DNA from: Rhodoferax sp.
GTDB lineage: Bacteria > Pseudomonadota > Gammaproteobacteria > Burkholderiales > Burkholderiaceae_C
Assembly (NCBI GenBank): GCA_018061265.1
Contig: JAGOUM010000006.1
Location: 23,862 to 87,861, forward strand
Direction: 5' to 3'
DNA length: 64,000 nt
Positions 3,642-63,862 of the stretch are shown in pieces. The notes under the pieces are model-generated. The model was not told where the DNA came from, ran no database searches, and was given only the letters and a program-made list of their open reading frames with translations. Position numbers and translations under genes: made by a program. Position 1 is the stretch's first letter. Every line of letters begins with the position of its first letter.

Positions 3642-6122
3642 TCAGTTTCCCGACTTGAACGGTTTGCGTGGTGATGGGCTGACGCCTTTTGCCGAGCCGG
3701 TCCCCCTGGGCGGAAGACCAGTGTGCTGCGTCAGGATACGGCCAGGCTTCACTGTCGCTGCGGTCATGCGATCTGCTCCTTTGGAATGCTGCCCCGGCGG
3801 AGTCACCACAGACGTGGAATTTTTCTTGCGTGGGCTTTGGTAGCCCAAATCTGCCTGAGGCTGCCAAGTGGGCACCAGATGGTGTTTGCCATTGCCGATC
3901 AGGTCAGCACGGCCCATCGCCTTGAGCGCTTCACGTAGAAGTGGCCAGTTGTTGGCATCGTGGTAGCGCAAAAAAGCCTTGTGAAGCCGACGGCGCCTGT
4001 CACCCCGCACCACGTCCACCGTGTCATCCTCGCTCAGGACTTCACGCCTCACTCCGCGCAACGGATTTCTGCCGGTGTGGTACATCGCCGTCGCGGTGGC
4101 CATGGGGCTGGGGTAAAAGGTCTGCACCTGGTCGGCCCGAAAACCGTTTTTCTTTAGCCAGATCGCCAGTTGCATCATGTCTTCATCGGTGGTGCCTGGG
4201 TGGGCCGCAATGAAGTAAGGAATCAGGAACTGTTTTTTGCCGGCCTCTGCGCTGAACCGGTCAAACAGCGCCTTGAATTTGTCATAGGTACCGATACCGG
4301 GCTTCATCATTTTTGACAGCGGCCCGGTTTCCGTGTGCTCAGGGGCGATCTTCAGGTAGCCTCCGACATGGTGTTGCACCAGCTCCTTGACGTACTCCGG
4401 GCTTTGCACCGCCAAGTCATAACGCACACCCGAGCCGATCAGGATCTTTTTGATGCCTTTGAGTGCCCGGCCACGGCGGTAAATCTGGACCAAGGGATCG
4501 TGATCGGTGCCCAGGTTCTGACAGATACCGGGGTAGACACAGCTTGGTTTACGACAGGCCGCCTCGATCTCAGGGCTTTTACAACCCAGACGGTACATGT
4601 TGGCGGTTGGCCCGCCCAGGTCGGAAATACTGCCGGTGAACCCCTTGACCTTGTCGCGGATGTCTTCGATCTCCTTGATGATTGAGTCTTCAGAGCGGCT
4701 CTGGATGATGCGGCCTTCGTGTTCGGTGATTGAACAAAACGTGCAGCCACCAAAACATCCACGCATGATGTTGACCGAGAAACGAATCATCTCCCAGGCC
4801 GGTATCTTGGTGGAGGCATCAAAGCGGCCATGTTCGTCGGCGTAAGCGGGATGCGGCGCGCGTGCATACGGCAAGCCAAAAACCAGATCCATCTCGGCGG
4901 TGGTGAGAGGAATCGGCGGCGGATTGATCCACACATCGCGCGCCGTCACACCCTCACCATGCGCCTGCACCAAGGCGCGAGCGTTACCGGGGTTGGTTTC
5001 AAGGTGCAACACACGGCTGGCATGGGCATACAGCACCGGATCAGCCTTGACTTGTTCGTAACTCGGCAAACGAATGACCGAGCGCTCGCGTGGTGGTACC
5101 CGCAGTTTGCCGCCCAGTCTGGCAGCGGCTGCGTTGGGCACAAAGACCAGTGGCTGCACGGCAGACGCGGCGCGCAAAGGCAAATCGGACTCGAGCCCAA
5201 GTTTTAAGGAATTTATGCCTCCAGCGCTTACCCTCAAAGCGCTAATAGCTACATTATCAGAAGCATTCTCGGCGACCACACCAGCATCAATGACACAGGC
5301 ACCGCCCTGCCCGGAAGCCTGTTCGGCGCTTGTCTGATACGGGTTGACGTGTGACTCGATGCGGCCCGGCTGATCGACACTGGTGGAATCAATCTCAAAC
5401 CAGCCCTTGCCTGATGCATCATCGGGGCGACGCACAAAAGCGGTACCGCGCACGTCGGTGATGGTCTCAATGGGTTCTCGGCGGCTCAGCCGGTGTGCAA
5501 TTTCAACAATCGCACGCTCGGCGTTTCCGTAAAGCAGCACATCGCATTTGGCGTCAACCACCACCGAGCGGCGCACCTTGTCGCTCCAGTAATCATAGTG
5601 GGCAATCCGGCGCAGGCTGCCCTCAATTCCCCCGAGCACAATCGGTACATCCTTGAACGCTTCGCGGCAGCGCTGACTGTACACAATGGCCGCACGGTCC
5701 GGCCGTTTGCCCCCCACATCCCCCGGTGTGTAGGCGTCATCGGTGCGAATTTTGCGGTCCGCTGTGTAGCGGTTGATCATGCTGTCCATGTTGCCAGCCG
5801 TCACGCCCCAAAACAAGTTGGGTTTGCCCAGCACTTTGAACGGCTCGGCGCTTTGCCAGTCAGGTTGGGCGATGATGCCCACCCGAAATCCCTGTGCTTC
5901 CAGCATTCTGCCAATCACCGCCATGCCAAAACTGGGGTGATCCACATAGGCGTCGCCAGTGACAATGATGATGTCGCAACTGTCCCAGCCCAGGGTCTCC
6001 ATCTCGACGCGGCTCATCGGCAAAAACGGTGCTGTGCCAAAACGCGCAGCCCAGAATTTGCGGTAACTGTTCAGGGGTTTGGCCTCGCGCGGAAAAAATG
6101 ACACGTCAACAGGTGCGTTCAT
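3642..6122 (-). CDS. ygiQ: YgiQ-family radical SAM protein
   Basis: This 826-residue protein begins with the YgiQ N-terminal domain ([21 protein letters not shown]) and carries a radical SAM core with the cluster-binding motif C456-x3-C460-x2-C463 in [10 protein letters not shown]. Downstream come [22 protein letters not shown] and [10 protein letters not shown], typical of the UPF0313 family. The biochemical function is unknown. It is longer than I expect for E. coli YgiQ; part of the excess is a low-complexity stretch at about residues 265-310, and the C-terminal tail is basic and Ser/Pro-rich. That internal stretch includes translated dispersed repeat DNA (see 5210-5255). It is convergent with envZ, the two stop codons lying 22 bases apart. 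Confidence 0.93.
5210..5255 (-). repeat. Dispersed hairpin repeat inserted in frame within ygiQ
   Basis: Read on the minus strand, this segment holds TAGCTATTAGCGCTT, a short loop, AAGCGCT, then GGAGGCATAAAT. The arms AGCGCTT (5223-5229) and AAGCGCT (5237-5243) pair. The flanks TAGCT and GGCATAAAT are shared with the intergenic copy at 60007-60048. It is translated in the ygiQ frame as part of a stretch reading [15 protein letters not shown], between two conserved parts of the protein. Confidence 0.7.
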
Positions 6123-6234
6123 GCAGAACTTTGAGATGAAAAGGGCTTGAGTTTAAAGTTCCGCTGCATTCGCGTTGATCTTGTAGGGTTGGCCGTTAAC
6201 ATCCTCCCCCCAAGGTTCAAGATAAAAACGCCCA

Positions 6235-6603
6235 ATGTCTGAAGATGTCGCTCACACCAGCAATTTAATTTGGCGATTTGGCTTTTGGACTTTGATGGCG
6301 GTCACACTGTACTTGTCCTTGGTACCAGTCCAGCAGTTGCCACAAGCCTTGAATTTTTGGGACAAGGCGCAGCACACATTGGGCTTTGCAGCACTGGCCA
6401 TAGGCGGCCTGCTGGCTTACCCGTCACACGCCAGGCGTGTTGCCCTCGGATTGACGCTGCTCGGCATCGGCATTGAACTGGCCCAGGCGCTCAGTGGCTG
6501 GCGCCACGGTGACTGGCTGGACTGGCTGGCCGACTGTGTCGGCGTGGCGCTGGGCGTGCTTGTTATTCAACTGTGGTGGTCAAAACTCAGGCAAACTGAT
6601 TAA
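6235..6603 (+). CDS. VanZ-like membrane protein
   Basis: A 122-residue protein with about four hydrophobic segments. It carries the VanZ-family pattern: DKAQHTLGFAALA after the first helix, and GIELAQALSGWRHGDWLDWLADCVGVALG near the end. VanZ-like proteins are widespread in Gram-negatives with no proven role; a link to resistance should not be assumed. ATG 6235 precedes the first helix directly, and no clear ribosome binding site is visible. It stands alone on the plus strand between ygiQ (divergent) and the minus-strand group at 6587-8096, whose last gene overlaps its 3' end by 17 bases. Confidence 0.82.
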   Translation: MSEDVAHTSNLIWRFGFWTLMAVTLYLSLVPVQQLPQALNFWDKAQHTLGFAALAIGGLLAYPSHARRVALGLTLLGIGIELAQALSGWRHGDWLDWLADCVGVALGVLVIQLWWSKLRQTD

Positions 6604-6787
6604 CCTGAGTTCCCAGCGTGCCTTGTGTTGCCAAGGGTGGCTGCGGCAGCGCCTGTATCAGCGACGCCGCCGAACTGGCCTGGATGTCCAGCGCTTTCTT
6701 AAGCACCAGAATATTCAATGCATCTTGCGACGGCCCCTGGCTGGTGGCAGCGGCGACTTGAACAGCAGGGGTATTCACAATGTTCAT
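6587..6787 (-). CDS. YjfB-like putative motility protein
   Basis: A 66-residue protein whose centre, ALNILVLKKALDIQASSAASLIQALPQ, fits the YjfB motility family (small proteins with a conserved LKKA-D-Q core and a following hydrophobic helix). The family name comes from its association with motility regulons in Bacillus; the molecular role is unknown. Its ATG overlaps the TGA of the upstream oxidoreductase as ATGA, so translation is probably coupled. The 3' end overlaps the convergent vanZ-like gene by 17 bases. No flagellar gene lies in the window. Confidence 0.65.
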   Translation of the reverse strand: MNIVNTPAVQVAAATSQGPSQDALNILVLKKALDIQASSAASLIQALPQPPLATQGTLGTQVNQFA

Positions 6788-7929
6788 ACGCTGATTCCTG
6801 TCATTCTGGGTGTTACGCCTTTATCGGCAGCCTGGTCACCAAGCTGAGTATTTTGTAGCCCACAGACGACTGCGTCGCCCAATTGAGCCCTCTCCTGCCC
6901 CATCGTCAGCATCTGCATGACTTGCAGCACCTGATCAGGCGTGACCATCAGTTCGGCCCGGCCACATAAATGGTCACGCAAATTGGCATAGTAATCCAGG
7001 TAGTTGCCGGGTGGATTGGGTGCCGCCTGACGAATACAAACCGGCTCGTTGACGCCAGGTATGGCTGACCAGTAAACGAGTTGCCCGGGTGAGGGATCAA
7101 CACCCCAGTCTTTCATGTCGTCAAGCTGCGGTCTCAGGCCGGCTTTGAGAGCGTCTTCCTGAGAATCCAGTCCAAACTTGATAAAACTGCCCTTTGTTCC
7201 ATGAACTACCCATCGCGGCCCGGTTTCGGCCACCAGGGTGCTGGCATGCAGAATCACCCGGCGCGCACCATCAGCGTGCTGGTAGCGCAATACCGCATGA
7301 AACCAGTCATTGACCAATGCTCCATCACGCACCACAGCCAGGTCAAGGCTGAACGCGTCTGGCACACCCCAAAGCTGCAACGCCTGATCGACCAGATGCG
7401 CGCCCAGATCCACCCAAAGGCCAGCACCTGGCTGGTCCTGCTCGCGCCAGCGCTGGGGTACCACTGGGCGATAGCGGTCAAAGTGGGCATTAACCTCCAC
7501 CACCCGACCCAATACGCGACTGTCCAATACCTGCTGCAACGCCAGAAAATCACTGTCCAGACGCCGGTTCTGAAACACCGTCAGTACCCTGCCCTGCTGG
7601 CGGGCCACCTGCAGCAGGTGTTCGGTTTGTGCCAGAGTCACTGTACAAGGCTTGTCGACCACCACATGTTTGCCCGCCAGCAAGGCAGCCAAAGCCAGTG
7701 GGTAATGGCTTTCATTGGGTGTGGCGATGACCACCAGATCAACATCGGGATGATTCAAGGTCTCGTGGGGTGTGGCCAGCACTTGCACTTGCGGCCAATC
7801 GGCAAGCACGTCAGACATTCGACTGGAGCACACCACAGCCAGTGTCAGGCCAGGCACGCCTGCGATCAAAGGCGCATGAAAAATCCGGGCGGCTGCACCA
7901 TAACCGATCAACGCCACATTCACAGTCAT
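6784..7929 (-). CDS. Gfo/Idh/MocA-family oxidoreductase
   Basis: A 381-residue protein with an N-terminal Rossmann fold (VALIGYGAAARIFHAPLI) that binds NAD(P), the family motif VVDKPCTVTLAQTEHLL (EKP-type Lys), and a C-terminal substrate domain with WVDLGAHLVDQALQLWG, where the Asp and His match the usual catalytic region. The layout resembles E. coli YdgJ-type sugar or inositol dehydrogenases, but the substrate cannot be read from sequence. ATG 7929 overlaps the stop of the upstream 56-residue membrane protein, and its own stop overlaps the yjfB-like gene, so the three form a tightly coupled unit. Confidence 0.9.
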   Translation of the reverse strand: MTVNVALIGYGAAARIFHAPLIAGVPGLTLAVVCSSRMSDVLADWPQVQVLATPHETLNHPDVDLVVIATPNESHYPLALAALLAGKHVVVDKPCTVTLAQTEHLLQVARQQGRVLTVFQNRRLDSDFLALQQVLDSRVLGRVVEVNAHFDRYRPVVPQRWREQDQPGAGLWVDLGAHLVDQALQLWGVPDAFSLDLAVVRDGALVNDWFHAVLRYQHADGARRVILHASTLVAETGPRWVVHGTKGSFIKFGLDSQEDALKAGLRPQLDDMKDWGVDPSPGQLVYWSAIPGVNEPVCIRQAAPNPPGNYLDYYANLRDHLCGRAELMVTPDQVLQVMQMLTMGQERAQLGDAVVCGLQNTQLGDQAADKGVTPRMTGISV

Positions 7930-8096
7930 TTTTTTCTCCGGGCACGCCAGATCAAGACACCAAGTGCGACCCCAAGCAGCGTCAAAAACGCCATACTGCT
8001 GGACGACAATCCGTCGAACGCCTGCAGCAGTTCATTCACACTGAAGACACTCAGTACCAGACTGGCGACGATCACAAGCAAAAAAACATACAACAT
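7926..8096 (-). CDS. Small two-helix membrane protein, hypothetical
   Basis: A 56-codon frame starts at ATG 8096 (MLYVFLLVIVASLVLSVFSV), passes a polar segment (NELLQAFDGLSSSS), enters a second hydrophobic helix (MAFLTLLGVALGVLIW) and ends RARRKK. Its TGA overlaps the ATG of the downstream oxidoreductase (ATGA), typical of translational coupling. The basic end suggests a cytoplasmic C-terminus. I do not recognise a family. Two clean helices, an even frame and the overlap support a real gene; conservation is untested. Confidence 0.6.
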   Translation of the reverse strand: MLYVFLLVIVASLVLSVFSVNELLQAFDGLSSSSMAFLTLLGVALGVLIWRARRKK

Positions 8097-8196
8097 AAGT
8101 CATGCGTCCGAGGAACCTGTCTAACAATTTGCCAGATCATCCCCGAAAATGAGGCTCTGGCAACGCATCGAAGCGCCAAAAAAGAATCAAGTCACC

Positions 8197-9093
8197 ATGC
8201 TGCATTTTCTACCTGCCCCACTGCTGGGCGTTCTGGCCAGTGGTCTGATGCTGCTCAATATCCTGTTCTGGGTACCCATTCTGCTGATGTTTTCCATCAT
8301 CAAGCTACTGCTGCCTTTCAAGTCAGTGCGATTGCTGATCGATCCACTGCTGTTGCGCATCGCTGAAGCATGGATCGCTGGCAACAGCGGATGGATGCGG
8401 CTGACACAAGAACTCAACTGGGAGGTGACTGGCATCGACACCCTGCGGCGTCAGCAATGGTATCTGGTGGTTTGTAATCACCAGTCGTGGGTGGACATTC
8501 TGGTGCTGCAGCATGTGCTGAATCGGCGCATCCCCTTGCTCAAGTTTTTCTTGAAAAAGGAACTGATCTGGGTGCCCATCATGGGCTTGGCGTGGTGGGC
8601 ACTGGAATTTCCGTTCATGCGGCGACGCAGCGAGGCTTATCTGCAAAAACACCCCCAGGAGCGCGGCAAAGATGCCGCCACCACCCGTGCTGCCTGCGAA
8701 AAATACGCACTGGTGCCCACCAGTGTCATGAATTTTCTGGAGGGCACCCGATGCACCCCGGCAAAACAAAAACGGCAACAGTCACCCTATCGCCATTTGC
8801 TCAAACCCAAGGCCGGCGGGGTGAGCCTGGCACTCGACGCCATGGGGGAAAAGTTTGGTGCGGTGCTTGACATCACCATCGTCTACCCGCAAGGGACGCC
8901 GGATTTCTGGCATTTTTTGCAAGGGCAGGTGCCAAAAGTCGTGGTGCATACCCGGCTGCTTGACGTGCCACAGGTGCAACTGCTAACAGGCCAAAGCAGC
9001 GAACAAGCCTGGCGAGATCTGTGCCAGCCTTGGGTGAACCAGCTATGGGCTGAAAAAGACGCGCTGATCACCAACACCCTGAAACGGCAATGA
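8197..9093 (+). CDS. YihG-like lysophospholipid acyltransferase
   Basis: A 298-residue membrane acyltransferase of the PlsC superfamily. An N-terminal hydrophobic hairpin is followed by the catalytic motif NHQSWVD (His95 and Asp100 of HX4D), the FMRR block, and FLEGTR, which binds the phosphate of the acceptor. Overall similarity is closest to E. coli YihG, an inner-membrane acyltransferase that acts on lysophosphatidic acid. ATG 8197 gives a YihG-like N-terminus; an in-frame ATG at 8149 would add 16 polar residues, and neither has a strong ribosome binding site. One base separates it from the lipase-like gene, suggesting a lipid-related two-gene unit. Confidence 0.88.
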   Translation: MLHFLPAPLLGVLASGLMLLNILFWVPILLMFSIIKLLLPFKSVRLLIDPLLLRIAEAWIAGNSGWMRLTQELNWEVTGIDTLRRQQWYLVVCNHQSWVDILVLQHVLNRRIPLLKFFLKKELIWVPIMGLAWWALEFPFMRRRSEAYLQKHPQERGKDAATTRAACEKYALVPTSVMNFLEGTRCTPAKQKRQQSPYRHLLKPKAGGVSLALDAMGEKFGAVLDITIVYPQGTPDFWHFLQGQVPKVVVHTRLLDVPQVQLLTGQSSEQAWRDLCQPWVNQLWAEKDALITNTLKRQ

Positions 9094-34809: not shown

Positions 34810-35928
34810 TTAAGCCTTTACAGCCATCATGATTCTCTGGCGAGCAATTCGCTCCTCCACCCGCGTGCGATCGTTCACCTCTCCGGCCAATTGACCACAG
34901 GCAGCATCGATGTCATCGCCTCTCGTTTTCCGGATCGTAGTGACAAAACCGGCGTCAGAAAGAATTTTCGCAAACTTGGCGACTTGCGCCGGTTGCGAAC
35001 GCAGTAGCCCAGACTGAGGAAACGGATTAAAGGGTATGAGATTAAATTTGCACCACGGCCTGTTGCCCGCGCCCTTTCGCACCAAGTTGACAAGCTCAAA
35101 TGCATGTTCGGGTTGGTCGTTCACCCCATCAAGCAGACAATATTCAAACGTGATGAAGTCACGGGGTGCAGACTCCAGGTATCGCCTGCACGTCTGTATC
35201 AGTTCATCCAAAGGATACTTGACATTGAGTGGGACCAATCGATCACGTAATTGGTCGTTGCCTGCATGCAGCGAGACTGCAAGTGCCACCGGGCAGTCGT
35301 TCGCCAGGCGCTCGATCATGGGGACAACACCTGAGGTTGAAACCGTCACCCGCCGTCGGGATAGGCCGTACGCATGGTCACTCAGCATGGTCCGTAACGC
35401 CGACACAACTGCATCGTAGTTTTGCAGGGGCTCCCCCATGCCCATCATCACAACATTGGTGATGACGCGTTCATTTCCGCCATTGCGCTGCCGCAAAAAA
35501 TGCTCGGCGAACCACAATTGGGCAATAATCTCACCAACACTAAGGTTTCGACTGAATCCCTGATGTCCCGTTGAGCAAAAGCGGCACCCCACCGCACAGC
35601 CAGCCTGTGAAGATACACATAGCGTTCCTCGGTCGGCCTCCGGGATGTAGACAGTTTCTATGGTATTGCCACTACCAACATCAAACAGCCACTTCGCGGT
35701 TCCGTCAGCAGACAGGTGTTGGGAGACAACGACAAGTGGACGAACAACGGCACATGCCTTGAGTTTGTCGCGCAGGGTCTTGGCAAGATCGGACATTTCG
35801 TCAAATTCGCTGGCACCCTTTTGATGTACCCAGCGAAACAACTGAACGGCACGAAAGCGTTTCTCTCCCAGCCGTTCGCAAAAATCGGCCAAGCCCTCGA
35901 GATCAAAATCGAGCAGGTTGACCGACAT
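34810..35928 (-). CDS. rlmN: Dual-specificity rRNA/tRNA adenine-C2 methyltransferase RlmN
   Basis: A 372-residue radical SAM methylase with cluster motif [12 protein letters not shown] (CxxxCxxC), [12 protein letters not shown], and the conserved [16 protein letters not shown] and [13 protein letters not shown]. RlmN methylates A2503 of 23S rRNA and A37 of some tRNAs. The second conserved Cys near the C-terminus is expected in AACGQLAGE. It is preceded by ndk and followed by pilF on the same strand. Confidence 0.96.
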
Positions 35929-51864: not shown

Positions 51865-53208
51865 TTATCCGGGTGAAGTCACAATCTGGCGAACACGCAC
51901 CGAGGGAAGGGTAATCTGAAAACATGAACCCCGGCCGGGAGTGCTTTCGATGTGCAGGAGACCTTGGTGACGCTGCACCACATGTTTGACAATCGCCAGA
52001 CCTAGTCCAGTACCGCCCGTTTCGCGAGACCTGCTTCGGTCAACACGATAAAAACGCTCAGTGAGCCGTCCCAAATGTTCTGGCGCAATGCCCTGCCCAC
52101 TGTCCTTAACGACAAAGTTCAAACTTCCATCCTGTGTCAATGCGACACGAACCACAATGCGACCACCTGCTGGTGTATACCGAATGGCGTTGCTGATGAG
52201 ATTTCCCATGGCACTCATAAGCTCACTGGCGTTGCCTGCAATTTGGGCGTTCGTTTGACAATCAAAATCCAAAACATGAGGTGACGCGGGCTCGCAGACC
52301 ATGCCCGACAGTGCGTTTGCATCCTGTGCCAGTTGGTCGATCAGGCTGCCGATTGGCGTCCAGCTATCACAGCCGGGCGAGGGACTACCCTCAAGTCGGG
52401 ACAAAGTCAGCAAATCGCTGACCAGCGTTTGCATTCGGCCCGCCTGTTGCGCCATTAAACCAAGGTAGCGTTGCTGTTCGTCCGGGCTGAGCGGCAGATT
52501 TTGCAGGGTCTCCACAAAACCGGCCAGAACCGTCAGGGGTGTCCTGATTTCGTGCGACACATTGGCCACAAAATCACGACGCATGGCGTCGGCCTGCTCC
52601 AGCGCTGTCACATCCCTCGACAACAACAGGCCACGGCCACCCCCATACGGATGCAACTGTGCCGACAAACTTACCGGTCGACCCGCCGTGCTGTGCCGCC
52701 CTGGCAAGGTGACACTTTGAAGAAAATCACCCGCAGCAAGATAGCGTACAAAGGCCGGGTCACGTACCAGGTTGGATATGGGTTGTGCCAGATCTCGCTG
52801 TGCGTCCAGACCAAAATGCTCCATGGCGGTGAGATTGCACCATTCAATTCGACCCAGTGGATCCAGCAAGATGACACCGTTGGGCGACGCCTGCAAAGCC
52901 GAGAGAAAGTCCTGCAGGCGGCCTTGGCTCTGCGCATACTGTTCATCGCGGGTGCGCAATATCCGCCGCAGGCGGTGCGCCGACTCCCGCCAGACGCCAC
53001 CCAGCCGGATGCTCTCATTGATCGCGCCGTGCCGCAATTGCACCAGCCATCGCCACGCATAAAGCGCATCCAGGCTGACCCATAACGCACCAGCAACCAC
53101 AGCACCAGACCAGCCGCTGGCATAGCGGATATTTTCAGCACCTGCCAGTTCACCCAGCAGAGCCCCAACCGTCAACGCTGCAAAATAACTCAGCGCGCGC
53201 CAGAACAT
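51865..53208 (-). CDS. phoR: Phosphate regulon sensor kinase PhoR
   Basis: This 447-residue kinase has N-terminal membrane helices (YFAALTVGALLGELAG and GAVVAGALWVSLDALYAW), a PAS domain (LSALQASPNGVILLDPLGRIEWCNLTAMEHFGL), HisKA box NVSHEIRTPLTVLAGFVETL, and ATPase motifs NLISNAIRYTPAG, VKDSGQGIAPEHL and [12 protein letters not shown]. With PhoU and the Pst transporter it senses phosphate sufficiency. The ATG lies inside the 3' end of phoB, overlapping by 19 bases. It is the last gene of the pst-pho operon. Confidence 0.94.
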   Translation of the reverse strand: MFWRALSYFAALTVGALLGELAGAENIRYASGWSGAVVAGALWVSLDALYAWRWLVQLRHGAINESIRLGGVWRESAHRLRRILRTRDEQYAQSQGRLQDFLSALQASPNGVILLDPLGRIEWCNLTAMEHFGLDAQRDLAQPISNLVRDPAFVRYLAAGDFLQSVTLPGRHSTAGRPVSLSAQLHPYGGGRGLLLSRDVTALEQADAMRRDFVANVSHEIRTPLTVLAGFVETLQNLPLSPDEQQRYLGLMAQQAGRMQTLVSDLLTLSRLEGSPSPGCDSWTPIGSLIDQLAQDANALSGMVCEPASPHVLDFDCQTNAQIAGNASELMSAMGNLISNAIRYTPAGGRIVVRVALTQDGSLNFVVKDSGQGIAPEHLGRLTERFYRVDRSRSRETGGTGLGLAIVKHVVQRHQGLLHIESTPGRGSCFQITLPSVRVRQIVTSPG

Positions 53209-53909
53209 GGCATGGTGGCGCCTTGTGCCGTGAGGCGATAGCCAGCACCACGAACGGTTTCAAGCATTTGCCCGGCTTCCTGCCCCAAAGCCTCTCGCAG
53301 ACGTTTCACATGCACGTCGACGGTTCGCTCTTCGATAAACACATGGTCACCCCAAACCCGGTCAAGCAGCGCCGCCCGGCTGTGGACGCGCTCGGCATGG
53401 GTCATCAAGTAATGCAAAAGCTTGAATTCAGTGGGGCCAAGTTTGAGTGCTTGCTCTTTGAATGAGACCCGGTAGGTGGATGCATCCAGTGTCAGGTCGC
53501 CCAGACTGACAGTACCAATATCCTGCTCAGGGGTGCGCCGACGTAATACCGCCCGAATACGTGCAAGCAGCTCTTTGGTTGAAAAAGGCTTGGCAATGTA
53601 GTCGTCCGCTCCCGCGTCCAGTCCGGCCACACGGTCAACCTCGTCGGTTCGTGCCGTCAGCATGATGATTGGTACGTCTTTGGATCGCGGATGGGCGCGC
53701 CAGCGTTTGGCCAACGCCAGTCCACTCTCACCAGGCAACATCCAGTCCAGAAGCACCACATCGGGAAGCACCGCGTCAAGCTCTGCCTGAGCGGTGGCAC
53801 TGTCCATGGCCCAAATCGGACGAAAGCCACTGTGCTTGAGATTGACCGAAATCAACTCGGCAATGGCCGGCTCGTCTTCGACAATCAATACGGCTGGCAA
53901 TCGCCTCAT
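53190..53909 (-). CDS. phoB: Phosphate regulon response regulator PhoB
   Basis: A 239-residue OmpR-class regulator: receiver with VEDEP, phospho-acceptor Asp in VLLDWMLPGESGL and KPFSTKELLARIRAVLRRR, and a winged helix (LGPTEFKLLHYLMTHAERVHSRAALLDRVWG ... RTVDVHVKRLREAL) that binds PHO boxes. Candidate PHO boxes lie at 58505, 58981 and 60096 in this window. It overlaps phoU by four bases and phoR by 19. Confidence 0.96.
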   Translation of the reverse strand: MRRLPAVLIVEDEPAIAELISVNLKHSGFRPIWAMDSATAQAELDAVLPDVVLLDWMLPGESGLALAKRWRAHPRSKDVPIIMLTARTDEVDRVAGLDAGADDYIAKPFSTKELLARIRAVLRRRTPEQDIGTVSLGDLTLDASTYRVSFKEQALKLGPTEFKLLHYLMTHAERVHSRAALLDRVWGDHVFIEERTVDVHVKRLREALGQEAGQMLETVRGAGYRLTAQGATMPCSGAR

Positions 53910-57392: not shown

Positions 57393-58433
57393 TTACTTCA
57401 AAGCAACCGGCTTGCCCGATGTGTCTTTGACATTACTCCATGCCTTTTCGATGGTGGCAACCACGCTGTCAGGCAGTGCTACATAGTCCAGGTCGCCGGC
57501 AATCTTGTCGCCGCTCTTGAAAGCCCAGGTGAAAAACTTGAAGGTCTCGGTCGCATTGGCCGGCTTGTCTTGCACGTTGTACATCAAGATAAAGGTGGCG
57601 GTCGAGATGGGCCAGGTGTCTTTACCTGGCTGGTCAGTGATCAGCTGATAAAACGACTTGTTCCAGTCAGCACCAGCCGCAGCAGCGGCGAATGCCTCTT
57701 CACTTGGGTTAACAAAAACACCATCCTTGTTTTTCATCATGGTGTAGGTCATTTTGTTTTGCTTGACATACGAGTATTCCACATAGCCAATCGAGTTGGG
57801 CAGACGGTTCACAAAAGCGGCCACACCTTCGTTGCCCTTGCCACCGGCACCGACTGGCCAGTTGACGGCCGTGCCCTCACCCACCTTGGCTTTCCACTCG
57901 GGGTGGACACGGCTGAGGTAGTTGGTGAAGTTGAACGTTGTGCCCGAACCGTCAGCGCGACGCACCGGTGCGATATCTGCATCAGGCAACGCCAGGCTTG
58001 GGTTCAATGCCTTGATGGCCGCATCATTCCACTTGGTGATTTTGCCCAGATAAATATCACCCAGGACTTGACCATCCAGCTTCAATTGACCAGGAGCAAT
58101 GCCCTTGACATTGATCACCGGGACCGTGCCACCGATCACGGTGGGAAACTGGAACTGGCCTTTTTTGGCCAGTACATCATCGGTCAACGGCATATCTGAG
58201 GCACCAAAATCAACTGTCTTGGAGTCAATCTGCTTGATGCCAGCTCCAGAGCCGACAGATTGGTAGTTGACCTTAACACCGGTGGCCTTGTTGTAATCTG
58301 CCGCCCACTTGGCATAAACCGGGGCCGGAAAGCTGGCACCTGCACCCGTGATTTCCTGCGCGTCGACCGCACCTATGCCCATAAAGGCCAGTGTTGTGGT
58401 CGCCAAAATTGACTTGATCGTGAAATTTGTCAT
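57393..58433 (-). CDS. pstS: Phosphate-binding periplasmic protein PstS
   Basis: This 346-residue protein has a signal peptide (SILATTTLAFMGIGAVDA) and the PstS fold: ITGAGASFPAPVYAKWAADYNKATGVKVNYQSVGSGAGI, VDFGASDMPLTDD, and RADGSGTTFNFTNYL which holds phosphate. ATG 58433 is fixed by AAGGAG eight bases upstream; the frame is open further but not family-like. It is the first gene of the pst-pho operon and is preceded by a PHO box and matching -10. Confidence 0.97.
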   Translation of the reverse strand: MTNFTIKSILATTTLAFMGIGAVDAQEITGAGASFPAPVYAKWAADYNKATGVKVNYQSVGSGAGIKQIDSKTVDFGASDMPLTDDVLAKKGQFQFPTVIGGTVPVINVKGIAPGQLKLDGQVLGDIYLGKITKWNDAAIKALNPSLALPDADIAPVRRADGSGTTFNFTNYLSRVHPEWKAKVGEGTAVNWPVGAGGKGNEGVAAFVNRLPNSIGYVEYSYVKQNKMTYTMMKNKDGVFVNPSEEAFAAAAAGADWNKSFYQLITDQPGKDTWPISTATFILMYNVQDKPANATETFKFFTWAFKSGDKIAGDLDYVALPDSVVATIEKAWSNVKDTSGKPVALK

Positions 58434-58488: not shown

Positions 58489-58522
58489 AATTTACGTCGC
58501 CAATATGTCAAGAATGTGACAA
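58489..58522 (-). promoter_or_regulatory. PHO box and -10 of pstS
   Basis: On the minus strand, TTGTCAC-ATTC-TTGACAT (58522 down to 58505) is a 7-4-7 direct repeat resembling the PhoB consensus CTGTCAT-n4-CTGTCAC. Exactly 10 bases later lies TAAATT (58494-58489), the spacing at which PhoB contacts RNA polymerase. The predicted transcript start is about 50 bases before the pstS ATG. Confidence 0.75.
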
Positions 58523-58664: not shown

Positions 58665-58958
58665 ATGCTTGCCATTAAAAAAGCCCGCAAAATCATTGAA
58701 ACCAATCCCAACGAGCCCGCCTCGCAGATCATTGCCGCGCTGGTGCTGGCGCTGGAGAGTGAAACCAGCATTTCTGTGGCGCAGTTGTACCAGCTTGACA
58801 ACAAGCGCTTTGAACTGGCACTGGAGATTCTTGACGAGTGGCGCCTTGATCGACACTATGCAAGTAAATTGCGCCTGCTTGACAGCAGCAACCAGGCGCG
58901 CGGTTTGACCAAGCCCGAAGAAACACCGGTAGAACCACCCGTTGCTCCTGGTGCTTAA
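58665..58958 (+). CDS. Conserved small protein, hypothetical
   Basis: A 97-residue acidic-basic helical protein (LAIKKARKIIETNPNEPASQIIAALVLALESETSISVAQLYQLDNKRFELALEILDEWRLDRHYASKLRLLDSS) with a Pro/Val-rich tail. I have no function for it. The region of Leu-rich helices with evenly spaced charged residues suggests a small helical bundle. ATG 58665 is chosen from the position of GGA eight bases upstream; the frame is open from 58590. It lies divergent from pstS, with a PHO box in between, and upstream of ppk2. Confidence 0.65.
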   Translation: MLAIKKARKIIETNPNEPASQIIAALVLALESETSISVAQLYQLDNKRFELALEILDEWRLDRHYASKLRLLDSSNQARGLTKPEETPVEPPVAPGA

Positions 58959-58980: not shown

Positions 58981-59014
58981 GTGTCACGCGTTGTTCATGC
59001 TGGCACGCTAAACT
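58981..59014 (+). promoter_or_regulatory. Candidate PHO box and -10 upstream of ppk2
   Basis: GTGTCAC-GCGT-TGTTCAT (58981-58998) is a weaker 7-4-7 PHO-box-like repeat (6/7 and 4/7). After exactly 10 bases comes TAAACT (59009-59014), nearly the same -10 as at pstS and at 60124. The ppk2 start codon follows about 35 bases later. Confidence 0.5.
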
Positions 59015-59049: not shown

Positions 59050-59967
59050 GTGAACCCCTCTGATGAAGAACTGATCCAGCGAATTCGCCGCGATCTGGCC
59101 GACAGCTACGACGAAGAGTTTGAACTCGAACTTGAGGACCGCAACCTCGATGAAATGGCCGAGAGCGCCGTGCAAACCGACACCGAGGCTTACCGAAACA
59201 GCCGCCGTGTGTATTTTCGAGAGCTGTTTCGGCTGCAGGGAGAACTGGTCAAGCTGCAGGACTGGGTGGTCAAAACAGGTCAGAAAATCGTGATCTGTTT
59301 TGAAGGTCGGGACGCCGCTGGCAAGGGTGGCACCATCAAACGTATCACCCAGCGACTCAATCCCCGGGTTTGCCGGGTTGCCGCATTGCCAGCGCCCAAT
59401 CTGCGCGAACAAACCCAATGGTACTTTCAGCGCTATGTGGCGCACCTGCCAGGTGCCGGTGAGCTGGTTTTGTTTGACCGCAGCTGGTACAACCGCGCCG
59501 GCGTTGAACGGGTGATGGGCTTTTGCACCGACGAGCAGTACGAAGAGTTTTTCCGATCGGTGCCCGAATTTGAAAAAATGCTGGTGCGCTCGGGCATCAA
59601 GCTCATCAAATACTGGTTCTCCGTGTCGGACGAAGAGCAGCAGTTGCGCTTTCTGGGCCGCATCCATGACCCGCTCAAACAGTGGAAGCTTAGCCCGATG
59701 GACATGGAGTCCCGCAAGCGCTGGGAGGAGTACACCAAGGCCAAGGAAATCATGCTGGAGCGCACGCACATTCTCGAGGCACCCTGGTGGGTGGTGAATT
59801 CAGTCGACAAGAAAAAGGCCAGGCTCAACTGCATTCACCACTTGCTGAGTCAGATACCGTACGAAGAAGTCGAATACACGCCGATCGTGCTGCCACCCCG
59901 TGAACGCAACGACGACTATGTACGCCAGCCGGTTCCCAAAGAGATTCTGGTCCCCGAGGTGTATTGA
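59050..59967 (+). CDS. ppk2: Polyphosphate kinase 2
   Basis: A 305-residue single-domain PPK2: Walker A in CFEGRDAAGKGGTIKRITQ, Walker B-like LFDRSWYNRAGVERVMGFC, and lid region LGRIHDPLKQWKLSPMDMESRKRWEEYTKAKEIML. PPK2 enzymes phosphorylate nucleoside di- or monophosphates using polyphosphate, or run the reverse reaction; the length and motifs suggest class I. The start is GTG 59050, with AGGAGAA six bases upstream. Its place next to the pst operon and behind a PHO-box-like promoter ties it to phosphate starvation, which is inference. Confidence 0.93.
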   Translation: MNPSDEELIQRIRRDLADSYDEEFELELEDRNLDEMAESAVQTDTEAYRNSRRVYFRELFRLQGELVKLQDWVVKTGQKIVICFEGRDAAGKGGTIKRITQRLNPRVCRVAALPAPNLREQTQWYFQRYVAHLPGAGELVLFDRSWYNRAGVERVMGFCTDEQYEEFFRSVPEFEKMLVRSGIKLIKYWFSVSDEEQQLRFLGRIHDPLKQWKLSPMDMESRKRWEEYTKAKEIMLERTHILEAPWWVVNSVDKKKARLNCIHHLLSQIPYEEVEYTPIVLPPRERNDDYVRQPVPKEILVPEVY

Positions 59968-60095: not shown

Positions 60096-60129
60096 GTGTC
60101 ACACGCCTGACACGCCCGAGCCTTAAATT
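60096..60129 (+). promoter_or_regulatory. PHO box and -10 upstream of the GT28 glycosyltransferase
   Basis: GTGTCAC-ACGC-CTGACAC (60096-60113) fits the PHO-box 7-4-7 direct repeat with 6/7 matches in both halves. Exactly 10 bases later is TAAATT (60124-60129), the same hexamer and spacing as at pstS. The glycosyltransferase ATG follows 38 bases after it. This is the strongest sequence evidence that the gene is PhoB-activated. Confidence 0.7.
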
Positions 60130-60167
60130 GGCGATCTTCCGCCAACCCATTACCCATTGCCAAAACC

Positions 60168-61298
60168 ATGGCCCGCATTGAGCTGATTTACTTTAACGCC
60201 GGCGGTGGTCACCGTGCCGCAGCCCAAGCGCTCGGGCAAGCCATGCAACACCGACCCTGGCAGGTGCATCAAACCAATCTGGTGGACATGCTCGACACCA
60301 AAGGGCAGTTCTACAAGCTGCTCGGGTGGCATCCCGAAGACCTCTACAACCGCCGGTTGTCCAGCGGCATGACGCTGGGCATGAGGCAGGAGCTCAAACT
60401 GCTGCAATGGATGATTAGGCTTGCAAACCCTGCCATGATCAAGAAAATGCAGGAATACTGGGTGTCCGCGCGCCCCGACCTGGTGGTCTCGCTCATTCCC
60501 AACTTCAACCGCGCACTCTGCCAGAGCCTGTCTCAGGCGATGCCTGGCACGCCGTTCGTCACGGTGCTGACCGACATGGCAGACCATCCACCGAATTTCT
60601 GGATTGAGCCCGACCTGCCACAACATCTGGTATGCGGTACGACGCATGCTGTTGAACAAGCGTTACATGCGGGCTGCCCGGCAGAGCGCATCCACCGCAG
60701 TTCCGGGATGATCCTGTCCCCCCGGTTTTATCAGTCGTCAACCATTGACCGCGTCCAGGAACGTCTCAAACACGGACTGGATCCGAGGCAAGCCGTGGGT
60801 CTGGTGATGTTCGGGGGCTATGGCTCGGATGTCATGAAGAATATTGCCCGCAGCGTGCCCGATACGCCCCTGATTCTGATCTGCGGCAAAAACGCCAAAC
60901 TTGCCCAATCATTACGGCGTATGCCCGCGCGGGCAGCGCGACTGGTGATTGAATTTACCGACGATGTACCCTACTGGATGCGTTTAAGTGATTTCTTGAT
61001 CGGCAAACCCGGACCGGCCAGCCTCAGCGAAGCAGTTCAGATGGGACTGCCAGTGATCGTGACTAAAAACGCCTGGACCATGCCGCAGGAACGCTGGAAC
61101 ACACAGTGGGTTCGTACCCATGGCCTGGGTGTGGTTGTACCCGGCTTTAATCGGGTGCAGGAGGCAGTTGCTGAGGTTCTTGACCAGCTTCCCCAGTTGC
61201 TGGCCAACGTCGCAAAAATTCGCAATCGGGCAGTATTTGAGGTGCCCGAAATTCTCAAAACCTTATTGCCGGTCACTGCCGTTTCTGATCACCAGTGA
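60168..61298 (+). CDS. GT28/MGDG-synthase-like glycosyltransferase
   Basis: A 376-residue GT-B fold protein. The N-terminal domain begins IELIYFNAGGGHRAAAQAL, the pattern of MGDG synthase and processive diacylglycerol glucosyltransferases, and the C-terminal GT28 domain holds LVMFGGYGSDVMKNIA, LILICGKNAKLAQSL, FTDDVPYWMRLSDFLIGKPGPASLSEAVQMGLPVIVT, with the donor-binding GKPGPASLSEA motif. These enzymes add sugars to diacylglycerol. Here PHO-box control suggests glycolipid made to spare phosphate, as with Agt of alphaproteobacteria; the lipid acceptor and sugar are not proven. No PlcP-type phospholipase is adjacent. The 3' end overlaps the convergent gene by 36 bases. Confidence 0.85.
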   Translation: MARIELIYFNAGGGHRAAAQALGQAMQHRPWQVHQTNLVDMLDTKGQFYKLLGWHPEDLYNRRLSSGMTLGMRQELKLLQWMIRLANPAMIKKMQEYWVSARPDLVVSLIPNFNRALCQSLSQAMPGTPFVTVLTDMADHPPNFWIEPDLPQHLVCGTTHAVEQALHAGCPAERIHRSSGMILSPRFYQSSTIDRVQERLKHGLDPRQAVGLVMFGGYGSDVMKNIARSVPDTPLILICGKNAKLAQSLRRMPARAARLVIEFTDDVPYWMRLSDFLIGKPGPASLSEAVQMGLPVIVTKNAWTMPQERWNTQWVRTHGLGVVVPGFNRVQEAVAEVLDQLPQLLANVAKIRNRAVFEVPEILKTLLPVTAVSDHQ

Positions 61299-63140
61299 CC
61301 TGCCCTCGATTTTGGCATCATGCTTGGCCCGGGCGGCCACCGAGGCCACTGCCTCGGCGCTGTTAAATTCAAACGCTTTGATTTTGACGGCACCAATCGA
61401 CAAGGTGGTTAAGGGGAAAAACCGCGACACGCCAAACCGGTCTTCGGCCTGTATACCGCCAGCAGCCCGTGCCGGACCATCAAACAAGGCAACCGCCTGT
61501 TGAGAGAATTCCACAATAATCTGCTGGCACTGGCTCTGCCAGTCGTCACTCTGATACAGCAAGATGAAATCATCACCGCCCACATGGCCCAGGAAATCGC
61601 GACGCGGGTCGCAGTGTGCCTTTGCCAGTTTGGCGACCAGACGAATCATCTCGTCGCCGCGCCAATAGCCGTACTGGTCGTTAAACGGCTTGAAGTTGTT
61701 GAGATCAGCATAACAGGCCACAAACGCCACACCGCTTTTGAGTAAGCGTTCGATATGCTGGCTGATCGGAATGTTGCCTGGCAAAAACGTCAGTGGATTG
61801 GCGTGGCGCGCTGCCTCGATACGGGTCTCAGTGACAGATCGCACCAACTGTTCGCCGGTACCGACACCCTGGTATCTGCCGTTTTCAGTAACAATAAATC
61901 CGTCTGCCAGGTAACGCTGATCTTCGGAAGTCAGAATGCCCACCAGATCATCAATATTGTGGTGGCGTTCAACCAGCCGTGGTTCGAAATTGACGTGCTG
62001 CCTGCAAGATTTATGTCCCCAAATCTCACGATAGTAGAGTTTGCTGTATTCGTTCAGGAATGCCGAACGGTTGATGATTCCCACCGGGCGTGCGCCATCG
62101 AGCACGGCGATCGCATGCAACTTTGGGTGCTTGAAAAAAATTGCTGCCAGCTGATCGTTGTCTGTGTTCAGGCCCACCGTGGGTGCCGCCACGACCGCCA
62201 ATCGGCTGAGCGATCCCACGCTGGGCATACGTTGCAGCTCTGGAAAAACCGCCACCGCACTATCGCGAATGGCGATCAACGCCGCGTCGTCAATCTGCTC
62301 TCGCGGCAAGCGCGCCGGCCGACCCAACAGGTAACCCTGGCCATAACCAATGCCCAGGTCACGCAGCACACGCAAATCGTCTTCGGTCTCGATGCCTTCA
62401 GCTATCAATGAGGTGCCAAACACGGCAGCAATCTGTTGCAGCGCCTGAATGGTCTTGAGCTTGTCGGCGTGCTGGCTGATGGCCTTGGTAAAGTACTTGT
62501 CAATCTTCACAAATTCGGGCTTGATCTGCGACCACAGGCGAAGGCTGGAGCGCCCGTCGCCAAAATCATCCAGCGCCAGCGCAACACCTGCTGCTCGAAT
62601 CAGCCCAACCACCGTGGCGAGCTGATCCATATCAGCGACGCGCTCATACTCGGTGATCTCCAGCACCAGCATCCTCGGCGAGACCCCCATGCTGCTGATC
62701 AGCGCTAGCAAGCTTTCACACCCATGTTGGCCAACCAGTCTAAGCAGGGCATCTGCGCTGATATTGACAAAGATGCGCCCAGGCTGGTTGAGACTGCCCC
62801 ACAAATCAAGCGCCACTGCGACACAGTGGCTCTCAAACTCATGGTTCAAGTTTTCGTGCGCGGCAGCCCGCAAAAGGGTGTCGGGGGTGTGGAACGAGGT
62901 GTCGGCGGGGCCTCTGATCAGCGCCTCATGCGAAAAAATGACACCATCTGCCAACGACGCAATGGGCTGATAGACCGGATAGAGCAACTGCCTGCGCATC
63001 AGCGTGGAGAGTTGCCCCCTGCCCCGCTTGATTGCCTCGGGAATATGCCCAACGACCACCGCCGCAAAACGCTTTCCGAGCCGGTGGCCCGGGCGTGTTG
63101 GCAACATTTTGATGGGCGGGGCAGAAATGGGCACTGTCAT
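61263..63140 (-). CDS. EAL-CBS-GGDEF cyclic-di-GMP protein
   Basis: A 625-residue protein. The N-terminal EAL domain keeps the phosphodiesterase residues (EALIRGP, FVNISADAL, LEITEYE, ALDDFGDGRSS, FVKIDKY, AEGIETEDD, GYGQGYLLGRP). A CBS pair follows (LNTDNDQLAAIFFKHPKLHAIAVLDGARPVGIINRSAFL ... RYLADGFIVTENGRYQGVGTGEQLV), then a GGDEF-type domain whose signature is GGDDF, with Glu replaced by Asp. It probably degrades c-di-GMP; cyclase activity is doubtful. ATG 63140 is chosen from the first Met before the conserved part. No membrane helix is seen. Confidence 0.9.
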   Translation of the reverse strand: MTVPISAPPIKMLPTRPGHRLGKRFAAVVVGHIPEAIKRGRGQLSTLMRRQLLYPVYQPIASLADGVIFSHEALIRGPADTSFHTPDTLLRAAAHENLNHEFESHCVAVALDLWGSLNQPGRIFVNISADALLRLVGQHGCESLLALISSMGVSPRMLVLEITEYERVADMDQLATVVGLIRAAGVALALDDFGDGRSSLRLWSQIKPEFVKIDKYFTKAISQHADKLKTIQALQQIAAVFGTSLIAEGIETEDDLRVLRDLGIGYGQGYLLGRPARLPREQIDDAALIAIRDSAVAVFPELQRMPSVGSLSRLAVVAAPTVGLNTDNDQLAAIFFKHPKLHAIAVLDGARPVGIINRSAFLNEYSKLYYREIWGHKSCRQHVNFEPRLVERHHNIDDLVGILTSEDQRYLADGFIVTENGRYQGVGTGEQLVRSVTETRIEAARHANPLTFLPGNIPISQHIERLLKSGVAFVACYADLNNFKPFNDQYGYWRGDEMIRLVAKLAKAHCDPRRDFLGHVGGDDFILLYQSDDWQSQCQQIIVEFSQQAVALFDGPARAAGGIQAEDRFGVSRFFPLTTLSIGAVKIKAFEFNSAEAVASVAARAKHDAKIEGRSLVIRNGSDRQ

Positions 63141-63236
63141 CGGGGCAGGCTTTGATGAACCAACGCAGTTATGAGTGATTCCAGACTCTAAGGAAAAATT
63201 GTGACAGCTCGATGACTTCGGCGTGTCTGCTACTGT

Positions 63237-63264
63237 TTTCCAGCCAACGATAAAACGATATAAA
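63237..63264 (+). promoter_or_regulatory. Promoter-like sequence upstream of 63296
   Basis: TTTCCA (63237-63242) and TATAAA (63259-63264), separated by 16 bases, resemble a sigma-70 promoter (4/6 and 5/6). The next gene's ATG lies 31 bases downstream, behind AAGGA. Nothing comparable was seen for the divergent EAL gene. Confidence 0.4.
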
Positions 63265-63295
63265 CTGTATAGCTCGTTTAATTCAAGGACTTTCC

Positions 63296-63862
63296 ATGGC
63301 CACCCTATCGTCAAACAGCTCACCAGCCGTGCCAGACTTGGCAAATTCCGATACACCAAAACCGATCAGCCCAGCGCCCGGTCGTGCAGCATTACAAAAC
63401 ACCGCCACGGCAAAAGCTCCTAAAACCACAATCGGCACGCGTTCCAGAACTGCCAAAGCTGCAGCGAGATCAGTGCCTGCCGCTGCCCCGGAAGCCAGCA
63501 ACACCGATGCACCCACGTTTGTGCGACCAGCTGCAAAAAAGAACACCGTGAAGGCGTCGGTCAAAGGCAATTCGCGTGAAGGTGTTGCGCCAAAGCCGGT
63601 AACACCCGAACTGCCCAGGATTGAAAAGCCGTTAAAAGAGAAGAAGCCAAAACTGGTGCGCGACAGCTTCACCATTCCGAAGCTTGAGTATCTGCTGCTT
63701 GACCAACTCAAACATCGCGGTGGCGCACTCGGGATGGCGATCAAGAAAAGTGAGCTGATTCGCGCTGGCATCAAGGCACTGGTGGCCATGCCCGATACTG
63801 ATTTTCAGTCGGCGGTCAAGGCAGTTCCCACAATCAAAACGGGACGGCCCACAAAGGACTGA
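63296..63862 (+). CDS. Lys/Ala/Pro-rich protein with RHH-like C-terminus, hypothetical
   Basis: The 188-residue product has a long low-complexity N-terminus rich in Ala, Pro, Lys and Thr (about residues 1-115), probably disordered, and a folded C-terminus: KPKLVRDSFTIPKLEYLLLDQLKHRGGALGMAIKKSELIRAGIKAL. That segment, a short strand followed by two helices, looks like a ribbon-helix-helix DNA-binding domain and recurs in betaproteobacterial proteins I cannot name further. Histone-like or regulatory use is a guess. ATG 63296 has AAGGA six bases upstream. Confidence 0.7.
   Translation: MATLSSNSSPAVPDLANSDTPKPISPAPGRAALQNTATAKAPKTTIGTRSRTAKAAARSVPAAAPEASNTDAPTFVRPAAKKNTVKASVKGNSREGVAPKPVTPELPRIEKPLKEKKPKLVRDSFTIPKLEYLLLDQLKHRGGALGMAIKKSELIRAGIKALVAMPDTDFQSAVKAVPTIKTGRPTKD

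Follow-up and report, generated by a model that had tools for sequence, protein, structure and literature searches.

A glycosyltransferase gene of the GT28/monogalactosyldiacylglycerol (MGDG)-synthase type, located beside the pst operon of a freshwater Rhodoferax relative, probably serves PlcP-based lipid remodelling, with its product performing under PhoB the sugar step that elsewhere belongs to Agt. The gene lies in a stretch of 64,000 nucleotides of contig JAGOUM010000006.1, which was analysed as a whole and is called the window here. Seen directly were the gene with the fold class predicted for its product, a promoter motif conserved in relatives, a PlcP homologue with its own promoter in the same assembly, and the co-occurrence of both genes among genomes.

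Enzyme class of the glycosyltransferase

The gene (60168..61298, + strand, with the ATG start at 60168 of the open reading frame (ORF) list) encodes a protein of 376 aa. Its assignment to the MGDG-synthase type, made from the sequence letters in a preliminary description, was borne out by PF06925, which matched with 26.5 bits (E 7.9e-6) over a gathering cut-off of 25. In a sequence-profile search, MGD1 was the top match, followed by the solved structure 9wde, which we take to be UgtP-like from its name alone. The predicted GT-B fold was also closest to MGD1, and a profile built from 46 sequences matched MurG C-terminal domains. Identity to Arabidopsis MGD1 is 21–25%. H15 and D136, equivalent to the catalytic H155 and the critical D279 of MGD1, were invariant in 43 alignment rows, as were the GGGH and TD positions.

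Within the same reading, the enzyme could be processive and UgtP-like, forming di- or triglycosyl instead of monoglycosyl lipids. Bacillus UgtP, a processive diacylglycerol (DAG) beta-glucosyltransferase with a lipoteichoic-acid role, belongs to the same superfamily and is second in the profile ranking, but its N-terminal part scarcely aligns with this enzyme. A solved processive beta-glucosyltransferase came first in the single-sequence search (3.6e-18, with MGD1 at 2.6e-16), and the best named NCBIfam model was the diglucosyl-DAG synthase PRK13609, at 86.6 bits far under its cut-off of 500. Since MGD1, which adds one sugar, is closer by profile and fold, this variant is considered rather unlikely, though a serious candidate.

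In a tree with midpoint root only, the Rhodoferax rows clustered with the window and the Chromatiaceae rows were nested inside those of Burkholderiales, which suggests transfer of the gene between the two groups. A homologue with 40% identity is encoded on a Nostoc plasmid, in a record without annotation. In one close relative (L012, 10001-11161, tblastn span), the gene contains an internal stop or frameshift, due to error or decay.

Promoter motif in the window and in relatives

The preliminary description placed the box GTGTCAC-ACGC-CTGACAC-N10-TAAATT ahead of the gene, and it is present exactly at 60096..60129 (+ strand), with half-sites at 60096-60102 and 60107-60113 and the −10-like TAAATT at 60124-60129. 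The half-sites agree at 10 of 14 positions with CTGTCAT-N4-CTGTCAT, the consensus quoted in PMC8528852. The same geometry and −10 were found, as had been claimed, at pstS (TTGTCAC-ATTC-TTGACAT-N10-TAAATT, 58489..58522, − strand). The pattern TGNCA-N6-TGNCA-N11-TANNNT, drawn up post hoc from these two sites, matches nowhere else in the 64 kb, giving two occurrences where 0.03 were expected and none of 100 shuffles reached 2. A looser pattern gave 6 matches against 1.66 expected (6 reached in 0 of 100 shuffles), five of them inside 58.4–63.3 kb, before pstS, PPK2, the glycosyltransferase and a GGDEF-EAL gene (two overlapping). The sixth (35313-35346, + strand) is isolated and perhaps due to chance.

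Conservation of the 7-4-7 motif in relatives, the test named beforehand, was then found in a contig scan of genomes. The scan was queried with short peptides of a single glycosyltransferase, so that distant forms are under-sampled, and gave 62 loci from Rhodoferax, Rubrivivax, Leptothrix, Variovorax, Xenophilus, Hydrogenophaga, Quisquiliibacterium, Lautropia, Chromatiaceae and unclassified bins. Cultivable carriers of the gene include Rhodoferax antarcticus and a Variovorax isolate. The full motif (half-site, gap of 4, half-site, gap of 10, NANNNT) was present in 28 of the 61 regions that lie upstream of an operon's first gene (those of 60 loci plus the window); near-identical loci are among them, and the counts are thus not independent. 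The reverse strand gave 1 of 61 and shuffling a mean of 0.09, while other gap lengths yielded at most 6 and 4 matches versus 28 at gaps of 4 and 10. Among the regions upstream of other genes at these loci, 21 of 723 contained the full motif, and in six of the 21 the gene that follows is a conserved unknown one from a neighbouring cluster. A PhoB-driven lipid glycosyltransferase by pst, as first proposed, stands as the best reading of these sequences.

The wiring may vary among relatives. Where the gene closely follows that of phosphatidylserine decarboxylase (PSD), a box preceded the decarboxylase in 5 of 10 loci without a box of the glycosyltransferase's own and in 0 of 6 with one, so the Pho box may be placed before the decarboxylase there. 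Many promoters of the Rubrivivax type have a −10 whose end is about 8 bases upstream of the start codon, and their messages may be nearly leaderless. Rubrivivax-type loci such as L026 (about 5269-8988) contain, next to PSD-GT-PlcP, a cluster that encodes a GT4 glycosyltransferase, an unknown protein of 223 aa and an aminotransferase of class III; in 6 loci the full Pho-box motif precedes the gene of the 223-aa protein. In each of the nine loci of Chromatiaceae (L020, L023, L025, L027, L029, L033, L034, L035, L045), the glycosyltransferase gene is followed by that of a 121–126 aa EamA-type protein, which has a weak likeness to the ArnF flippase subunit and is possibly a glycolipid flippase.

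PlcP homologue and olsB

The earlier remark that no phospholipase partner is adjacent still holds, as none was seen among the ORFs of 48–64 kb, a part of which was searched against families. The source of DAG, left open at that stage, is likely the PlcP homologue encoded on another contig of the same genome (G000:C124:1097-1960), overlapping olsB. A glycosyltransferase without a DAG source was rejected on the presence of this homologue in the assembly. Among the 63 loci (the 62 and the window), 32 have a gene for a metallophosphatase arranged in tandem with that of the glycosyltransferase. The metallophosphatase matched LpxH weakly in NCBIfam, far below cut-off, and shares 54% identity over 237 residues with an S. 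meliloti homologue annotated as UDP-2,3-diacylglucosamine diphosphatase. We infer that this homologue is the characterised S. meliloti PlcP, and by sequence the tandem metallophosphatase is placed with PlcP.

The OlsB homologue on C124 passed the PF13444 cut-off, and its best NCBIfam models, below cut-off, were those of ornithine N-acyltransferase. Upstream of this olsB stand four half-sites in 11-base phase, followed by N10 and CAACAT. At least three phased half-sites were present in 9 of the 10 promoters read, and in at most 0.65% of shuffling trials. The array was spotted on visual inspection and afterwards picked up with a looser expression; some half-sites are GCCAT and were missed by the original one, so its description is post hoc. 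Pho half-sites precede both genes of the proposed pathway, as a 7-4-7 box at the glycosyltransferase and as a phased array at olsB-plcP. A Pho box upstream of olsB is reported for Acinetobacter in the accessible text of PMC11828411.

Co-occurrence with PlcP and relation to Agt

Of the 62 loci, 50 were queried for PlcP, and 48 of these 50 genomes, all with the glycosyltransferase gene, encode it. In a sample of the order, it was present in 5 of 5 gene-bearing genomes and in 154 of 299 overall (5/5 vs 149/294, p 0.035). Within the genus, it was found in 8 of 8 genomes with the gene, own genome included, versus 17 of 28 without it, three of these 17 at 48% identity (Fisher test 7/7 vs 17/28, p 0.051). 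Only the 48/50 count is strong, and the genomes are related, not independent.

The own genome (89.5% complete) gave no Agt match at E 1e-30 with one Agt query. At this threshold, Agt/GT4 matches were obtained in 38 of 50 gene-bearing genomes, 7 with an Agt of 47–60% identity and 31 with a 33–40% relative only, while the remaining 12 had none. Strict exclusion between Agt and GT28 was rejected on these 38 genomes. With plain Agt in 7 of 50, the distant GT4 in 31 and no match in 12, GT28 and plain Agt are regarded as mostly alternatives, not strict ones. The distant GT4 group, encoded in the Rubrivivax-type cluster, is taken as a subgroup other than Agt. Three relatives without the glycosyltransferase gene (L078, L132, L133) carry an olsB-plcP-agt operon, whose GT4 is 43–50% identical to the plcP-adjacent one on a Roseomonas plasmid.

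Assessment of the proposed function

Several results weigh against a role in PlcP-based remodelling. Among the 61 upstream regions, 14 further ones have the double half-site without the rest of the motif, and in 19 neither was found by regular expression; some of these box-less promoters are taken to be uncertain starts or GCCAT-type half-sites escaping the expression (e.g., L019). The 19 promoters without a visible box would suit a position beside pst by chance, with a fortuitous motif and constitutive expression. This explanation is scarcely credible in view of the motif statistics, the exact spacing in relatives and the Pho motif of Chromatiaceae, which is combined with a GATAAT −10 at six of their nine loci.

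As for the enzyme, PF04101 (GT28 C-terminal domain) reached only 18.9 bits of a cut-off of 22. The activity-critical H256 of MGD1 is replaced by R115, invariant in the 43 rows, and T151 and D150 by A11 and N10, so the acceptor site differs from that of MGD1. The loss of these acceptor-contacting positions would agree with a Pho-controlled enzyme that glycosylates another lipid (undecaprenyl phosphate, hydroxylated ornithine lipid or a lipid A precursor) in an envelope change, as would the ArnF-like protein of the nine Chromatiaceae loci and OlsB, apparently in the same regulon. However, the plcP and phosphatidylserine decarboxylase genes that relatives carry in tandem speak for a glycerolipid, and the two top profile matches are DAG glycosyltransferases, which makes another lipid acceptor improbable.

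PlcP is also common without the glycosyltransferase gene and therefore does not need it: 16 of the 17 genomes of the genus that have PlcP but not this gene are also without Agt (in the count of 16/28, Agt means at least 47% identity and G002 is left out of the PlcP-positives). In 31 of the 50 gene-bearing genomes, the distant GT4 may itself act on DAG, since P. aeruginosa Agt2 is functional at 35% identity to another Agt (PMC8528852), and a GT4 route would then exist beside GT28. Finally, the 32-kb contig C124 recurs almost base for base (first 20 kb compared) as C89 of G002, the nearest genome, which lacks the glycosyltransferase gene and has its PlcP match only on this C89-type contig. A foreign origin of the contig in G000 was rejected, because the native olsB...sixA stretch of G002 (C139) is without plcP and the tetranucleotide use of the shared contig is nearer to G000 (0.094 from G000 samples vs 0.118 from G002 samples). 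C89 is likely misplaced in the G002 bin, with G000 as its home.

Genes and Pho boxes around the glycosyltransferase

The pst operon begins with pstS (57393..58433, − strand, PF12849), which encodes the phosphate-binding protein, and continues with pstC, pstA, pstB and phoU down to 53906 (− strand), named from sequence and order without family search. PhoB, the presumed activator (53190..53909, − strand; TIGR02154, 318.8 bits, cut-off 296.2), and the sensor kinase PhoR (51865..53208, − strand; TIGR02966, 381.5 bits, cut-off 334.2) are encoded 6–8 kb from the glycosyltransferase gene. Polyphosphate kinase 2 (PPK2; 59050..59967, + strand) matched PF03976 (E 9e-108) and TIGR03707 above cut-off. 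Its Pho box (GTGTCAC-GCGT-TGTTCAT-N10-TAAACT, 58981..59014, + strand) is absent from the preliminary description, and none was found upstream of PPK2 in the relative L012.

Convergent with the glycosyltransferase gene lies one for an EAL and GGDEF protein (61263..63359 as the longest ORF, − strand; PF00563, PF00990), whose true start is probably near 63140, behind two overlapping Pho boxes (63185..63229, − strand, loose-pattern matches). A box of the same kind precedes this gene in 4 of 4 relatives examined (L012-L015), and phosphate control of cyclic-di-GMP through it is possible. Between pstS and PPK2, a 97-aa gene (58665-58958, + strand) has tandem half-sites upstream; its copies are 85% identical in L012 and 56% in L066, and family searches gave no match above cut-off. 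The clustered boxes and the nearby PhoB and PhoR argue that phoR, phoB, phoU, pst, the 97-aa gene, PPK2, the glycosyltransferase and GGDEF-EAL form a Pho island.

Proposed mechanism and relation to known systems

In the following scheme, the binding of PhoB and induction by it, the substrate and product of the enzyme and the activity of PlcP are all inferred. At low phosphate, PhoR and PhoB would become active, and PhoB would bind the 7-4-7 box at 60096-60113 and switch on the glycosyltransferase gene, co-inducing pst, PPK2 and the olsB-plcP operon on the other contig. PlcP would then remove phospholipid head groups to give DAG, to which the GT28-type enzyme would transfer a hexose from a UDP-sugar, in the simplest case glucose or galactose. 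The phosphorus-free glycolipid would replace phospholipid, and OlsB would add to ornithine lipid. An unusual sugar or acceptor had been considered at first; nothing in the sequence analysis points to one.

PlcP-Agt remodelling is an established pathway of alphaproteobacteria, P. aeruginosa and methanotrophs (PMC8528852, PMC9239053, PMC4796936, PMC8231724, in their accessible text). The pathway is indeed known in alphaproteobacteria, as first noted, but is not confined to them, since P. aeruginosa has PlcP-Agt1/Agt2, with Pho boxes reported (PMC8528852). As in the PlcP-Agt systems of P. aeruginosa, SAR11, Agrobacterium and Methylosinus, there is here a PlcP homologue and, for the next step, a glycosyltransferase that would act on DAG. 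However, Agt is a GT4 enzyme, whereas this one is of the GT28/MGDG-synthase type and is encoded next to pst, apart from plcP. For the sugar step, this bacterium probably uses an enzyme like the galactolipid synthase of plants, and the better-known bacteria use an unrelated one, Agt. Like Arabidopsis MGD1, the galactolipid synthase, it keeps the catalytic His and critical Asp positions, and it differs at the three replaced residues.

The accessible text of PMC9239053 (2022) describes a putative Bacillus-type DAG glycosyltransferase beside plcP, instead of agt, in some type Ia methanotrophs. This is probably the same idea, likened by description only, and a Pho box is not mentioned in that text. 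The open literature, with subscription journals mostly outside its coverage, gave no account of a PlcP glycolipid gene in Burkholderiales, betaproteobacteria or Comamonadaceae, and nothing of use on the glycolipids of Chromatium. It can be proposed tentatively, with the balance slightly against it, that in Burkholderiales and purple sulfur bacteria an MGD-type fold took over the sugar step of the PlcP pathway from GT4 Agt, in several operon forms differently wired to PhoB, giving a beta-linked hexosyl (MGDG-like) lipid versus the glucosyl/glucuronosyl lipid of Agt.

If the function proposed for this gene is true, many Burkholderiales and the Chromatiaceae would make a phosphorus-sparing glycolipid with an enzyme that agt searches miss, and surveys based on agt as a marker would therefore undercount such lipids. 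The choice of sugar and anomer under phosphate stress would also become testable, as genes for both types of enzyme are found among close relatives.
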